A DNA stretch of 64,000 nt from a virus. The stretch is taken from IMG/VR virus record IMGVR_UViG_3300040809_000996, positions 1 through 64,000 of that record; one strand, written 5' to 3'. Below are positions 15,656-21,375 of the stretch, in pieces. The notes under the pieces were generated by a model that worked only from the letters and a program-made list of their open reading frames with translations, made no database searches and was not told where the DNA came from. Each line of letters begins with the position of its first letter. The stretch's first letter is position 1. Made by a program: the position numbers and the translations under genes.

Positions 15656-15888
15656 TAATTGACGATACGCATGACTTGCTTACAAAAGCATATATGGAAT
15701 ATTTTGTCGAAAATGAGAAGTTTGAGCGTAAATTATCACATAGGACTCACGCTTCAAGCCGGAGATCTTTAAGAAAGATAATTACTTTAGCAAAACAAAG
15801 ACAAAAAGAAATCCACGAGAAGTATGCCATCGAAAAGCAAATCAAAAGGCAAAGGGTTCGAGAGAGAAATAGCAAAGCATCTCTCTGA
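15652..15888 (+). CDS. Small basic protein of unknown function
   Basis: A 78-residue protein that starts in an ATGA overlap with the end of gp46. It begins MIIDDTHDLLTKAYMEYFVE and continues into a strongly basic, probably helical region rich in Lys, Arg and Gln. Its last 65 bases overlap the next gene in another frame. I do not recognise the family. The tight coupling to gp46 and the basic, alpha-helical composition would suit a nucleic-acid-binding accessory of the recombination operon, but that is only a guess from context. The four-base overlap is the main evidence that it is a real gene. Confidence 0.6.
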   Translation: MIIDDTHDLLTKAYMEYFVENEKFERKLSHRTHASSRRSLRKIITLAKQRQKEIHEKYAIEKQIKRQRVRERNSKASL

Positions 15889-16339
15889 AATGTATAATAA
15901 TTCATTTACAAGAGTTCCAGACAGTGGTGCTTTCACTGGCGGTAAAAACAATTATCGTCGAGAAACACTTACGGAAGGACAAGTACGAGCCCATAAAGGA
16001 GATATTATTCCTCCTGACCATTGGAAATACTTTAATGCAGAGTGTAAAAACTATGCAGGATTTCCCTTCCATCAATTACTCACTAAAGGCCCCATACCAC
16101 AACTTGAAAACTGGCTACAACAAACACTTGAGGCAGCAGACCAAGGCGATGTGAACATCCTCTTTATGAAATTTGACCGAATAGGCAAATATATCGCATA
16201 CCAATTACCACAAAACTTCAAAACTAACAGGCACTTAGACTACACAGACAAGGCTAACAACACTTGGAGACTTACAGGTTACAATGACTTCTTTGAATTG
16301 AACAAAGAAGCATTTGAATCCTGTTGTACAGGCGCTTAA
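15824..16339 (+). CDS. PD-(D/E)XK-type nuclease, possible Holliday-junction resolvase-like
   Basis: A 171-residue protein with the layout of a restriction-like nuclease core: KGKGFEREIAKHL near residues 8-20, a Gly-rich loop GAFTGG near 37, the acidic residue in KGDIIPP near 58, and the E-x-K element in FNAECKNYAGF near 71-80. In this superfamily the D and E-x-K residues bind metal and cut DNA; the N-terminal FERE helix resembles archaeal resolvases and VRR-type nucleases. It is the last gene of the gp55-gp47-gp46 operon, which fits a recombination or DNA-degradation role. The exact substrate is unknown. Its last 50 bases also form two strong hairpins that continue into the non-coding region downstream. 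Confidence 0.7.
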   Translation: MPSKSKSKGKGFEREIAKHLSEMYNNSFTRVPDSGAFTGGKNNYRRETLTEGQVRAHKGDIIPPDHWKYFNAECKNYAGFPFHQLLTKGPIPQLENWLQQTLEAADQGDVNILFMKFDRIGKYIAYQLPQNFKTNRHLDYTDKANNTWRLTGYNDFFELNKEAFESCCTGA

Positions 16340-16735
16340 GGCTATATACGAGACATTGTTTGATTAGGGTTGCCTAATCCATCTTGAGGTGTTGTTTGTA
16401 CACAACACCGGATACTGGTGCGTCTCACTCACGATAACCCCTAAAAACCTCTAGCACTAGGAACGAAGCAGAGGATAGTGTAAGTTTAACTTACATGATG
16501 TCGGTGTAGGTAAGGGAAAGGCAGGAGCCCTTGGGGTCGTACAAAACACCTACTTCATAGTCACGGCAAATGCAACTCACATGAAACATTTTCTAAAAGA
16601 CTTGGAACCTTTGTACAGGTTCCGTCTGACCAAAACAATCTACATGAACCATCAATTGATTCTAATTTATTAATGCTAGAAGAAATGTGTTAGAGCGTAA
16701 GCGAAAACACTAATGAGCGTAGCTCATTACATAAA
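16288..16735 (+). ncRNA. Candidate structured RNA (hairpin-dense, GC-rich intergenic region)
   Basis: The 415 bases between the nuclease and the next gene hold no reading frame of note but many stems. Two 60-base lines reach 48% and 52% GC, against about 30-33% in neighbouring genes. Helices: 16288-16295/16303-16310 and 16320-16324/16328-16332 (inside the nuclease 3' end); 16350-16354/16122+ paired as GAGAC at 16350-16354 with GTCTC at 16422-16426, closing two hairpins at 16362-16379 and 16388-16409; 16480-16485/16489-16494; 16506-16511/16548-16553 enclosing 16512-16516/16528-16532; an 11-pair stem at 16598-16627 with a two-base bulge; a GTAA-tetraloop hairpin at 16687-16710; and an 8-pair stem at 16711-16729. 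CCTCT/AGAGG and CACTA/TAGTG (16448-16480) interleave, so they are alternatives or a pseudoknot. No tRNA, tmRNA or group I intron core was recognised. Confidence 0.6.
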
Positions 16736-16737
16736 TA
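16730..16737 (+). promoter_or_regulatory. T4-type late promoter (CATAAATA)
   Basis: CATAAATA matches the NATAAATA late box. It lies directly after the last hairpin of the structured region and 17 bases before the TTG start at 16755, with GGATAGGAG between them. Confidence 0.55.
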
Positions 16738-16754
16738 TAGGATAGGAGAATGTT

Positions 16755-17735
16755 TTGTTAGCAAGTGAAATATTTTTAGAAGCACCGACTATAGACCCTG
16801 AATCATTTTATAGATTTGTAGAAACACCGCCTGATGCAAATGGTCATGTTGGCTATAAAGTTTACGACAAAGAAACTGGTATGGCTATTACATTTCGAGG
16901 AGAAAATGCATCAACAGAAGCAGAAGAATGGATTGATAAAAATGATCAGCGTCGGAAAGCTAAATTATTAAAGCAAAAACAAAAACAACAGCGTTTTAAG
17001 AATAAAGAACAGTATAAAAAAGTTGCTACTGACGGATACAAAAAATTCTTAGGTGGTCGTACTACTTATAGACTGATGAAATTTATTACACTTGCTGAAA
17101 GAGGAAATAATGTCCTCCTTTATATTCGTCGATACTATGCTGCATATGCAGAAAACGGTTGCAGTGAAAAAAGAATAGAAACAAATAAGAGTCCTTATGG
17201 CAATCGTTTAGTATACGATGATATGATTTATTTAAAAAAGAAAACAGCAGATACTATAGCCGAAGCTGTAGTTCAAGTATTAACTGGCTGGGCAACAGGC
17301 ACAATTTCAACCATAGCTGCAATAAAACTCTGCTCAGTTATTGCTGCAATATTTGCAATTACTGCTCCTGCAGCAATAATTTGGATAATAGGAATAATAA
17401 TTGGTGTTACGTTAGGATATGCTGCAGTGCCTTGGGTTGAAAAATTTATAGCTACCGAGTGGAAACCATTAGGTAAAACTTTAGGAGATTATGTTTTCTA
17501 TCTATTATGGTTAGAAGTAGCTGGAGGGTTAGTTGCTTGCAACGAAAGTGCAGGCAAGTCTAATAAGAATATTTTAATTGAACAAAAAAGAATAAATGAA
17601 GATCTTGAGCAAGCTAAAAATGCCTTCTTAAAAATAGCAGAAAAATTATACAATCAAATATATAATCGTTTTCCAAATAACATAAAATCAAGCATAGAGG
17701 CAATAACGAAATACATCAAAAACCTATTAAAGTAA
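16755..17735 (+). CDS. Hypothetical membrane protein
   Basis: A 326-residue protein I do not recognise. The start is TTG at 16755, six bases after AGGAG; an ATG at 16750 is out of frame and meets a stop after three codons. The protein has a charged, Lys/Gln-rich N-terminal half and a strongly hydrophobic segment at about residues 178-235 (for example CSVIAAIFAITAPAAIIWII followed by a second helix), which looks like two membrane-spanning helices. The C-terminal 80 residues are basic and helical. It has its own late promoter and faces the gp26/gp51 genes, with a nine-base convergent overlap. Late expression plus membrane segments would fit a holin-like, spanin-like or internal virion protein, but nothing in the sequence decides among them. 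Confidence 0.7.
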   Translation: MLASEIFLEAPTIDPESFYRFVETPPDANGHVGYKVYDKETGMAITFRGENASTEAEEWIDKNDQRRKAKLLKQKQKQQRFKNKEQYKKVATDGYKKFLGGRTTYRLMKFITLAERGNNVLLYIRRYYAAYAENGCSEKRIETNKSPYGNRLVYDDMIYLKKKTADTIAEAVVQVLTGWATGTISTIAAIKLCSVIAAIFAITAPAAIIWIIGIIIGVTLGYAAVPWVEKFIATEWKPLGKTLGDYVFYLLWLEVAGGLVACNESAGKSNKNILIEQKRINEDLEQAKNAFLKIAEKLYNQIYNRFPNNIKSSIEAITKYIKNLLK

Positions 17736-17987
17736 AGGCATCCTTGTTTTTGTTGTTGTTTCAATATTTTCTTTTATAATATCTGATATTATTTCTTTAT
17801 CTTCCGCATTTAAATTCCAAAATACATCTTCGTAAGTCATACTACCTCTCATATACCATGCTATCTTGAAAACATTGTGTTTTAAATGTTTTTGTTGTTG
17901 CTCGTATTTGTTTGCTAGTTCTAACAGGCCAGATTCGTCGAGCGTTAGGATCTGGCGGCGAAAAAAGTACTGTAGTCTATGGTAATT
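17727..17987 (-). CDS. gp51: gp51-like baseplate hub assembly protein, without a canonical start codon
   Basis: A minus-strand frame open from 17987 to the TAA at 17727-17729. From the ATC codon at 17951 it reads ILTLDESGLLELANKYEQQQ, then KHLKHNVFKIAWYMRGSMTY and ends ENIETTTKTRMPLL. This resembles the short proteins that follow gp26 in T4-like genomes, where T4 carries gene 51, a hub assembly factor. No ATG, GTG or TTG occurs before the conserved part. The frame is -1 relative to gp26, and a slippery T TTT TTC lies in the overlap (17966-17960), so it may be made as a gp26 extension. A non-AUG start or a one-base deletion in the T6 run are alternatives. Its 3' end overlaps the convergent gene by nine bases. 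The gp51 name is a tentative assignment by position. Confidence 0.6.
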   Translation of the reverse strand, partial: NYHRLQYFFRRQILTLDESGLLELANKYEQQQKHLKHNVFKIAWYMRGSMTYEDVFWNLNAEDKEIISDIIKENIETTTKTRMPLL

Positions 17988-18787
17988 TTACTCTTATAGC
18001 TTTTTTTACAATCTTCATTAGAACAAATCACTGACATGTCAGGCATTTCCCATTCTTTATTTAATTTTTTAATAGTAGATGCCAATAATTCAAATAAATC
18101 TCTGTCCGCATCAGCAAAGAAATTATTAATTTCAATTGGATCTTTTTCTATATTTTCTCCGTCGGAAATATTGTCTATATGCTGTAATATACTTTTAAAA
18201 TTCACCCGTGTCATATGATCGTAAATCGTCTGCTTTTGTTTATCTTTTTGTTCATCACTAAGTGCATTTGATGTTGTAATGTTCAACAAACTTTTTTCAT
18301 TCACATAGTTTTCTTTGCTAATTTCAGTTGCACTTTGGTAGGTAATTGATCTAACAGTAATTATAAGACCGTTATAATTTACAGTGGTATAACCATTTAT
18401 ATCGTCATAATGAGAAAGCAATCTTGATAAATTTAAATCACTATCTGTTGATGTTTCACACGATGGACACACTGTTGTTACTGGTAATTTTTCTCCATAA
18501 CTTGCTACCCTTATAGCAATTAAGAAGAAATCAACATCCGTGTTGATCAGTTTCCACGGATCTAACACACTAGGAATGCAACTTTTTAAAATCCTTGCAG
18601 TTGCTTCTCCTGAAAATAATGCATCTGGTGTCTTCAGCACCAGTTCGTCCATAGTATTCATTCCATATACTGGTATATCAGTAATCTTATTATTTTCAAT
18701 TATATCATTATTATAAAAAGCACCTTGACTGGGTAAATTAACAAATATTTTTGGTTGTCTTTTAAACTGTTCTAAAAAACTTGGCAT
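17945..18787 (-). CDS. gp26: Baseplate hub subunit gp26-like, zinc-binding
   Basis: The start is taken at 18787 (MPSFLEQFKRQPKIFV), with AGGAAAA five bases upstream; an upstream ATG at 18859 would add 24 unrelated residues and run into the divergent gene. The 280-residue protein has the marine T4-like gp26 block MDELVLKTPDALFSGEATAR, then ILKSCIPSVLDPWKL. It carries two Cys pairs, CPSCE and CSNEDC, that together could hold one zinc ion. T4 gp26 is 208 residues and takes part in hub assembly. The C-terminal end overlaps the gp51-like frame, and the last codons ACT TTT TTC form a slippery heptamer. It is divergent from the tape-measure candidate across a 56-base gap with late-promoter boxes on both strands. 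Confidence 0.8.
   Translation of the reverse strand: MPSFLEQFKRQPKIFVNLPSQGAFYNNDIIENNKITDIPVYGMNTMDELVLKTPDALFSGEATARILKSCIPSVLDPWKLINTDVDFFLIAIRVASYGEKLPVTTVCPSCETSTDSDLNLSRLLSHYDDINGYTTVNYNGLIITVRSITYQSATEISKENYVNEKSLLNITTSNALSDEQKDKQKQTIYDHMTRVNFKSILQHIDNISDGENIEKDPIEINNFFADADRDLFELLASTIKKLNKEWEMPDMSVICSNEDCKKSYKSKITIDYSTFFAARS
17960..17966 (-). other. Candidate -1 frameshift site between gp26 and the gp51-like frame
   Basis: On the minus strand the last gp26 codons read ACT TTT TTC GCC. T TTT TTC fits the X XXY YYZ slippery pattern in the gp26 frame. A -1 slip enters the gp51-like frame directly as CGC CGC CAG ATC, avoiding the gp26 stop at 17945-17947. A single missing base in the T6 run would look the same. 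Confidence 0.45.
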
Positions 18788-18843: not shown

Positions 18844-21375
18844 ATGGCAGATGAAGCAAAGCAACTTTCAGATGAGGCTTTAAAAGCCCTTAAAGATAGT
18901 ATAAACGGTGTTTCAAATAGTTTAGGAACCTTGAACGGAGCCCTTAGGGCAGGTACAGTGTCAGCTGATGATATGGCTAAGACATTTAGAGATACAGCCG
19001 GCAGTATTCCTGTGCTTGGCTCGGCGTTAGGTATGCTTGGCTCGGCATTAAATGTAGCAACTGAGTACATAGGTGAAACAAATAATATGTACAACACACT
19101 TGCTAAATCAGGAGCAGGACTTTCTGGAAGCATATTTGAATTGCGTTCCTCGTTTAACGAATCAAGGATGAGTATTGACCAATTTACAAGATTTGCTCAA
19201 GAAAATAGCCAGCAGCTCGCTGCATTTGCTGGAGGTGTAAGTCAAGGAACAAAGCGTATAGGCGAATACGGCAAAGCGTTAAACGATTCAAACCAAGGAC
19301 AGAGTGCAATCATAAATCAGTTTATGAATCTAGGTTATTCTATCGACGAAGCAACTGAATTTACAACACGATATCTTGCTACTCAACAGAGAAGTAACAG
19401 GATGGCACAAATGACAGCCCAACAAGAAGTTGCCCAAGCTGCTGAATATGCAAAACAATTAAAAGTCATATCAGCGTTGACTGGTAAGAGTGCAAAACAA
19501 ATGCAGGACGAGCAAAGCGCTCGTTTACGTGACGGAGCAACAAGGGCTGCTTTAATGAAAGCAGAAAAACAAGCAGGTGCTGCTGGTGCAAATGTAGCAT
19601 CAGCTTACACTGAAGCTCAAACTGCTTTACAAAAATCTCCAAAAGTAATGCAGGACTTGTTAGATGACTTAATTCAAACAGGTGTTCCTATGTCCGAAGC
19701 AACACAAAATTTTGCGGCTGTAAACGGAGAAGCTTATAATCTATTGGTAAAAGCGGCACAGGCTACAAAAGCAGGAGATGTTGAAGAAGCACAGAGATTG
19801 ACAGAAGAAGCGGCTGCAAAAGGAGCAGAATTTGCACAAAGCGAAATGGGATTAACTATTGCAACATTATCTCAGGTTAGTGATGTGGCTAAAGGGCAGG
19901 CTGATGCTTTATCCGAAATGGGTCCAATAATTGACGCAGTACGTGGCAACATGGATGACTTAAAAGCAACCACCGGCGAAAGTGTAACTTTCCTTGATGC
20001 ATGGAACAAAGCAGTTGCTAATTCTATTCAAAGGGTCACCGACGAAGCATCTGGTTTAGTAGCCGGTACTAATATGAAGCAAATATATGATCAAGCTGGA
20101 AAACAAGCAACAGATGCAGCTACACGATTCCAAGAAAATGTAGGAGACACCCTTGCGAATCAAGATGTCAATTTAGGTCGTACAGCTAATACCATGTCAA
20201 GAAATACTAACACTGCAGGAGATTTAGTAGATAATGTGTATAACAAAATAGGCGATTTGCCTTTCTTTAAAGATGACATTGGTGCTGCGCTAAATTCATT
20301 AAGCGAAGAGCAAAAAAAATTATATGATATAACAGAAAAGGATATAGAAAAATATAATGAATATATGAAGCTTGGAGCAGGTGATACTCAAAAGAAAGCA
20401 GACATAAGAGAGCAGCTAGGAGCTAAATTTTTTGATGATCTAAACTTAGAAGCCACTGACACAGATCTTAAAATTTATGAGGAACTTAAAAATTTAGGCG
20501 ATGCTAGAATAAAGGAAAGAGAACAACAGCTTCAGCAAAAGAAAGAAGAAACTGTTCAACAAATAGAAACACAGGTACAAGAAAATCCTGCCACAGAACC
20601 TACATACGGTATTGAAAATAACGATGATTTTTGGCAACCTTTGCTAGAATGGTTAGATAATAATCTATCAATAGACCAACTTGGAAAAATTATAGAGCTA
20701 TCAAAAGCTGAAACCAAAGGACTAAATCAACCTCCAACGGTAGCCGAAGCAAATGTTAAGGTAAAAGATCAACCATCGGAAGTAACAGAAATAGCAAATC
20801 TAATGTCAAGTTTTGAAAAAGAAGATCAAGCAAAGACAGCAGAACAGAATAGTATAAAGGAACAAGTAGCAAGTCTTGGACCTGAAATGAAAACTGTTTT
20901 TAACGATTTAGTAGCAGGAACTCCTAATTTTGAAGACTTCCAAAAAATTATTGAAGAAAATGGATCTGAATCATTTGATAAGATACAAGATCTAGCCTTA
21001 CAAATGCGAGCAACTTATACAAAAGATTATTCACAAGTTGGAACAGAACCACCTCAACTAGAAGTTGCAAGCATGCCTAAAGATCCTGTTGCAGATGCAA
21101 ATTTAAATGTTAAAAATTTAGCAGATAATATACAAGGACAATCAAATACTTTACAAAAAAGCATAGATACTCTAAGCATGCAGATAGGACAATTAATTGG
21201 ACAACTGGAAGGACCTACAACATTAGCCGGTGACCAACCAACAGAAAATAATATGGAAAAACAGTTAGTAAGTCTCAATAATAATGTTATAGCACTAATT
21301 GGCATAAATACACAAACAATGAACTTATACAAGAGAAATTTAGAAGAAATCAGATCAAATTCGACCTTTGCTTAA
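18844..21375 (+). CDS. Predicted tail tape-measure or hub-core protein
   Basis: An 843-residue, almost entirely helical protein rich in Ala, Gln, Glu and Lys. A Gly/Ala hydrophobic segment, GSIPVLGSALGMLGSALNVA, near residues 52-75 is typical of tape-measure proteins, which must cross the host membrane. Long heptad-like stretches follow (about 110-370), then a Glu/Gln-rich linker (about 560-590) and a helical C-terminus. The gene is preceded by a perfect late box and followed after 17 bases by the portal gene. In T4 the tape measure is gp29 (590 residues). I see no clear gp29 motif, so the call rests on composition, size and position between tail-hub and head genes. Another internal virion protein is possible. 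Confidence 0.5.
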   Translation: MADEAKQLSDEALKALKDSINGVSNSLGTLNGALRAGTVSADDMAKTFRDTAGSIPVLGSALGMLGSALNVATEYIGETNNMYNTLAKSGAGLSGSIFELRSSFNESRMSIDQFTRFAQENSQQLAAFAGGVSQGTKRIGEYGKALNDSNQGQSAIINQFMNLGYSIDEATEFTTRYLATQQRSNRMAQMTAQQEVAQAAEYAKQLKVISALTGKSAKQMQDEQSARLRDGATRAALMKAEKQAGAAGANVASAYTEAQTALQKSPKVMQDLLDDLIQTGVPMSEATQNFAAVNGEAYNLLVKAAQATKAGDVEEAQRLTEEAAAKGAEFAQSEMGLTIATLSQVSDVAKGQADALSEMGPIIDAVRGNMDDLKATTGESVTFLDAWNKAVANSIQRVTDEASGLVAGTNMKQIYDQAGKQATDAATRFQENVGDTLANQDVNLGRTANTMSRNTNTAGDLVDNVYNKIGDLPFFKDDIGAALNSLSEEQKKLYDITEKDIEKYNEYMKLGAGDTQKKADIREQLGAKFFDDLNLEATDTDLKIYEELKNLGDARIKEREQQLQQKKEETVQQIETQVQENPATEPTYGIENNDDFWQPLLEWLDNNLSIDQLGKIIELSKAETKGLNQPPTVAEANVKVKDQPSEVTEIANLMSSFEKEDQAKTAEQNSIKEQVASLGPEMKTVFNDLVAGTPNFEDFQKIIEENGSESFDKIQDLALQMRATYTKDYSQVGTEPPQLEVASMPKDPVADANLNVKNLADNIQGQSNTLQKSIDTLSMQIGQLIGQLEGPTTLAGDQPTENNMEKQLVSLNNNVIALIGINTQTMNLYKRNLEEIRSNSTFA

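Follow-up and report, generated by a model that had tools for sequence, protein, structure and literature searches.

A conserved TTTTTTC heptamer suggests that one gp26-like gene encodes a short and a long chaperone by programmed -1 ribosomal frameshifting

How can a conserved coding region be expressed if it has no start codon of its own? This question is raised by a window of 64,000 nucleotides from an uncultured T4-like phage (positions 1 to 64,000 of IMG/VR virus record IMGVR_UViG_3300040809_000996), in which a gp26-like gene on the minus strand (17945-18787, 280 aa) is followed in the -1 frame by a gp51-like coding region. The gp26-like protein matches the PF12322 (T4_baseplate) profile with 50.9 bits against a curated cut-off of 24.5 (2e-13) and also matches phrog_150 (baseplate hub). 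Its AlphaFold2 model is confident (pLDDT 91.6), and the viral structures matching this model are T4-like baseplate hub assembly proteins. A fold search found no relative of the gp51-like region, whose name fits by position and architecture. The 144-kb record to which the window belongs, which may be incomplete, contains this single PF12322 match, and a second PF12322 gene with an extension fused in frame, as in the two-gene layout of T4, was not found in it.

The gp26-like gene ends with TAC AGT ACT TTT TTC GCC GCC AGA TCC TAA, the stop codon occupying minus-strand positions 17947-17945. The -1 frame stays open over 86 codons (17987-17730), up to a TAA at 17727-17729. Its first ATG, GTG or TTG is the ATG at 17852, which lies within the conserved WYMRG motif. 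A slip on T TTT TTC (17960-17966, minus strand), a slippery heptamer in register with the gp26 frame, would give a joined product reading ...YSTFF|RRQILTL... and would add an extension of 79 codons plus stop (17727-17966, minus strand) as the C-terminal domain of a long form. The initial annotation had described this layout, and its main points hold: the gp51-like frame is in -1 relative to the gp26-like gene, no start codon precedes its conserved part, and slipping at the heptamer joins both frames. It had placed the heptamer in the last gp26 codons, however, and the heptamer in fact lies four codons ahead of the stop.

To compare the junction across relatives, as had been proposed, 2.9 million viral contigs were scanned, yielding 68 loci that encode the extension. 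Together with two cultured relatives and the window, these gave 53 non-redundant loci in which the junction is present. TTTTTTC was found in all 53, read by the gp26 frame as T TTT TTC. One tally was selected on the heptamer and another was not; in the unselected tally the only exceptions were loci cut by contig ends and loci L025 and L063, where the wrong frame had been read and where the heptamer is present in the selected tally. The gp26 stop follows 1-12 codons past the heptamer in the 53 loci, with 1, 3 or 4 sense codons between them in 51. The same gp26 genes contain 30 further Phe-Phe pairs, not one of which is spelled T TTT TTC; the naive chance of this spelling is about 0.06 per sequence, for sequences that share ancestry. 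These comparisons indicate that the heptamer in register is not due to chance. When the extension was compared with that of L002, the nearest informative relative (84% identical), dN was 0.12 and dS 0.65, indicative of purifying selection on the -1 frame.

A tblastn search of cultured phages with the window's extension gave no match, and diverse relatives were needed as queries. The same layout was present in the annotated genomes of the jumbo phages Atu_ph07, 121Q, PA5oct, GAP32 and RaK2 and of Phosso, SCTP-2 and Munch, and also in those of S-PM2, P-SSM2, MED4-213, Astolliot, avDM12, Bhz51, ValKK3 and S13. Close variants of the heptamer occur in XacN1, RAS14 and phiN3 (TTTTTTT) and in RHph_N34 (TTTTTTG). 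In a second scan, with the S-PM2 extension as query, the best 80 matches comprised 75 non-redundant contigs, and all 75 of these cyanophage-type loci carry TTTTTTC; the gp26 stop lies one codon past the heptamer in 72, and an SD-like GGAGG is found 15 nt upstream of the heptamer in 25. No SD-like motif was found upstream of the window's own heptamer. The frameshift layout appears from genome comparison to be the common state of T4-like cyanophages and jumbo phages, and not a peculiarity of the window phage. The initial annotation had regarded such a layout for the gp26/gp51 pair of a T4-like phage as novel; it may have been published already. The heptamer is absent from a side branch consisting of Vibrio phage K475, Serratia phage phiMAM1 and Pseudomonas phage Cygsa01 (loci L097, L098 and L101). 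At the gp26 stop, K475 and Cygsa01 read TAATG; phiMAM1 has neither heptamer nor TAATG, and no annotated extension gene.

The RNA downstream of the heptamer was then considered. Across 64 loci, the 60-nt stretch beginning 3 nt past the heptamer had a mean folding z of -2.23, with 53% of loci below -2, while at seven control offsets from -300 to +160 the mean z ranged from -0.29 to 0.37; the folding energy is anomalous at the slip site only. The stem-loop starts about 3-9 nt downstream of the heptamer across loci. When the best uninterrupted helix was sought with its 5' arm at +2 to +9, its median length was 10 bp; the share of loci in which it lay above the 95th percentile of the control stretches was 79% for the window type and about 41% for cyanophage-type and cultured loci. 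Among 16 loci that align without gaps, 86.5% of helix positions pair, compared with at most 52% when the partner arm was slid, and 14 two-sided changes were counted in the helix against 6.4 in shuffles; since the shuffles ignore relatedness, this covariation is support rather than proof. In the window, the predicted stem is formed by GCCAGAT (17950-17956, minus strand), which begins 3 nt past the heptamer and is kept in L001 and L002, and ATCTGGC (17928-17934, minus strand), with the gp26 stop within the loop. Taken alone it is modest, with a z of -1.3 in one calculation and -2.2 in another. By eye, the loop may also pair with the bases that directly follow the stem on its 3' side, as CTAAC/GTTAG in the window (17959-17920) and CTTCC/GGAAG in L027, which hints at an H-type pseudoknot.

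Ribosomal -1 frameshifting is usually stimulated by a downstream stem-loop and an upstream SD-like motif. Their presence bears on the idea that RNA polymerase, rather than the ribosome, slips at this site: by stuttering on the T6 run it would make longer or shorter mRNAs, from which the extension frame would be read. Such stuttering could be permitted by T6, and by T7 in XacN1, RAS14 and phiN3. Yet in nearly all loci the run has exactly six T and then a C and keeps the X XXY YYZ register, although polymerase slippage would favour longer runs, and the stem-loop at ribosomal spacing and the GGAGG upstream in cyanophages are stimulators of the ribosomal kind. We consider transcriptional slippage improbable.

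It is also conceivable that the extension is a small protein in its own right, initiated at a non-standard codon such as the ATC at 17951 or by re-initiation past the gp26 stop. Databases annotate gp51 as separately started, T4 gene 26 has an annotated internal in-frame start (26'), and an ATG close to the gp26 stop occurs in some relatives, either at codon 5 (24 of the 75 cyanophage-type contigs, where it is the first ATG) or as TAATG in 121Q, K475 and Cygsa01. An ATG at the position of the ATC codon, which the initial annotation had named as an observation that would refute frameshifting, thus does occur in some distant cyanophages, S-PM2 and P-SSM2 among them. It is no refutation, because the heptamer is invariant in 75/75 of these contigs and at least 39 of them have no ATG before codon 21. 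The window and 12 of the 53 window-type loci have no start ahead of the conserved core, and the residues FFR, which are encoded upstream of any start, are invariant as well. Translational coupling, moreover, would need neither an in-register heptamer nor a stem. Separate initiation therefore seems very improbable. A start farther upstream was ruled out, since 4 of the 53 window-type loci and five cyanophage-type loci have a -1 stop codon immediately before the heptamer, so that there the extension cannot start upstream of it. The loss or gain of a base during sequencing or assembly might split one in-frame gene, homopolymer runs being error-prone and T4 gp51 being an in-frame fusion, but this indel artefact has a negligible chance of being correct and was excluded because over 100 contigs and isolate genomes, assembled independently, repeat the layout while the distance to the gp26 stop varies among them.

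Taken together, the invariant in-register heptamer, the nearby 0-frame stop, the lack of starts, the selection on the -1 frame and the stem-loop support the proposal of the initial annotation that the gp51-like frame extends gp26 by a -1 frameshift. Very probably, then, this one gene yields two proteins, a short and a long chaperone form, by programmed -1 ribosomal frameshifting at T TTT TTC. Most ribosomes would end translation at the TAA at 17945 and release the 280-residue short chaperone. A minority, paused by the downstream stem-loop, would slip back one base on the heptamer, with the Phe-tRNAs re-pairing from TTT TTC to TTT TTT, and would read the -1 frame to the TAA at 17727; the resulting long form would have about 353 residues and a helical C-terminal domain. 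Comparison shows the heptamer and its register, the absence of start codons, the downstream structure and the gp26/gp51 paralogy, and we infer the slip, its efficiency and the chaperone roles. For the roles, lambda G/GT and T4 gp26/gp51 serve as models: the tape measure protein would be coated by the short form and linked to assembly of the tail tube or hub by the long form, the rarer of the two. T4 and its close kin make both forms from two paralogous genes.

The gene next to the gp26-like gene is divergent from it and encodes 843 residues (18844-21375). This protein is Ala/Gln-rich and contains no Cys; it has no Pfam match and a weak match to phrog_14121, 'virion structural protein' (4.5e-05), and may be the tape measure protein. 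On the other side, the end of the extension overlaps by 9 bases (17727-17735) the end of a convergent plus-strand gene for 326 residues (16755-17735), whose product matches no Pfam family and includes a strongly hydrophobic segment. Between the latter gene and a PDDEXK-type endonuclease gene (15824-16339) lie about 400 bases (16340-16754) that hold no long reading frame. This interval gave no Rfam or tRNA match and no similar DNA among cultured phages, and it folds no better than its shuffles (z -1.0).

The locus resembles lambda G/GT in its overlapping -1 frame and in an in-register slippery heptamer near the end of the short frame, and in the window the extension has no start of its own. The lambda heptamer is GGGAAAG, which differs from TTTTTTC. 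The lambda pair lies upstream of the tape measure gene, whereas the window gene is divergent from its neighbour. No sequence relation between the two systems was seen and the gp26-like model had no significant PDB match; the lambda class may be unrelated by descent to the window type. In lambda, the short protein has a rarer companion with a -1 extension, which arises at a conserved slippery site shortly before the short frame ends (Levin 1993; Xu 2004; in PMC5009743). Closer likenesses are found in the gp26-gp51 regions of cyanophages S-PM2 and P-SSM2, which have adjacent -1 frames, TTTTTTC and a gp26 stop one codon later. They differ from the window in that the extension is annotated as a separate small gene, many have an SD-like motif, and their extension is less long than that of the window and shows no significant similarity to it. 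The tail-assembly chaperone frameshift of Adele/Vandenendeviridae uses the motif GTTTTT (PMC12846349), in contrast to TTTTTTC in the window.

T4 gp26 and gp51 have been listed as hub assembly chaperones (PMC3004832); according to the accounts given in PMC10885494 and PMC12846349, Vladimirov, Gautam and Davidson (2022) recognised the two as tail-assembly chaperones. The same study is cited for T4-like phages in which a short gene and a long, fused one take the place of frameshifting (in PMC10885494) and for poly-T slip signals in the TAC-N genes of T4-like phages (in PMC12846349, 2025). Frameshifting in T4-like phages may thus have been published already, in part or in full. Because these citations credit Vladimirov et al. 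(2022) with both the chaperone identity and the poly-T sites, we count the principle as known, while the lineage, the stem-loop and the duplication inference may be new. The other literature found on gp26/gp51, Vladimirov et al. (2022) aside, does not mention frameshifting in the pair.

How does the T4 arrangement relate to that of the window? Both share PF12322 and a short form accompanied by a long form with a C-terminal extension, but T4 has two separate, divergent genes where the window has one gene with a -1 frameshift. T4 gp26 (208 aa) and gp51 (249 aa) both match PF12322, and the C-terminus of gp51 matches the cyanophage-type extension profile (5.7e-11) and phrog_634. These matches indicate that the two are paralogues, gp51 consisting of a gp26 domain to which the extension is joined in frame. 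T4 gp26 corresponds to the short form, and the FF at its end is written TTC TTT, with no slippery heptamer. The window's extension is homologous to those of jumbo phages (hhalign 98.5%). Against the cyanophage and T4 gp51 extensions the hhalign probability was 2-4%, which is not significant, and phrog_634 was not matched, so its likeness to these rests on position and architecture.

In a maximum-likelihood tree, midpoint-rooted for display, all gp26 and gp51 rows formed one clade (99/96), and the frameshift lineages, including the frameshift Straboviridae ValKK3, avDM12 and S13, fell outside it. The order inside the clade is unsure because of long branches such as Aer31_gp26 and RB43_gp26. On this tree the separate gp26 and gp51 of T4 look derived, and the two genes probably arose from one frameshifting gene. 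RB43 (L182, 4001-5294) appears to have gp51 and a gp26-like gene one after the other on the same strand, where those of T4 are divergent, and this may be nearer to the state just after duplication.

A broader reading is possible, if somewhat doubtful: the TTTTTTC -1 frameshift would be ancestral in T4-like and many jumbo phages, the essential T4 genes 26 and 51 would have arisen within Straboviridae by duplication of one frameshifting gene, replacing recoding, and the 'truncated' gp51 of cyanophages would be the frameshift tail of gp26. Frameshifting would explain why cyanophage and marine vibriophage gp51 seems to lack about 200 N-terminal residues (PMC3037559). It would provide a testable expression mechanism for the relatives of two T4 core genes whose role in the hub has been unclear, and what many genome records annotate as a small gene would be a misread frameshift product. 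One virus family would also show, in nature, recoding that apparently gave way to gene duplication.
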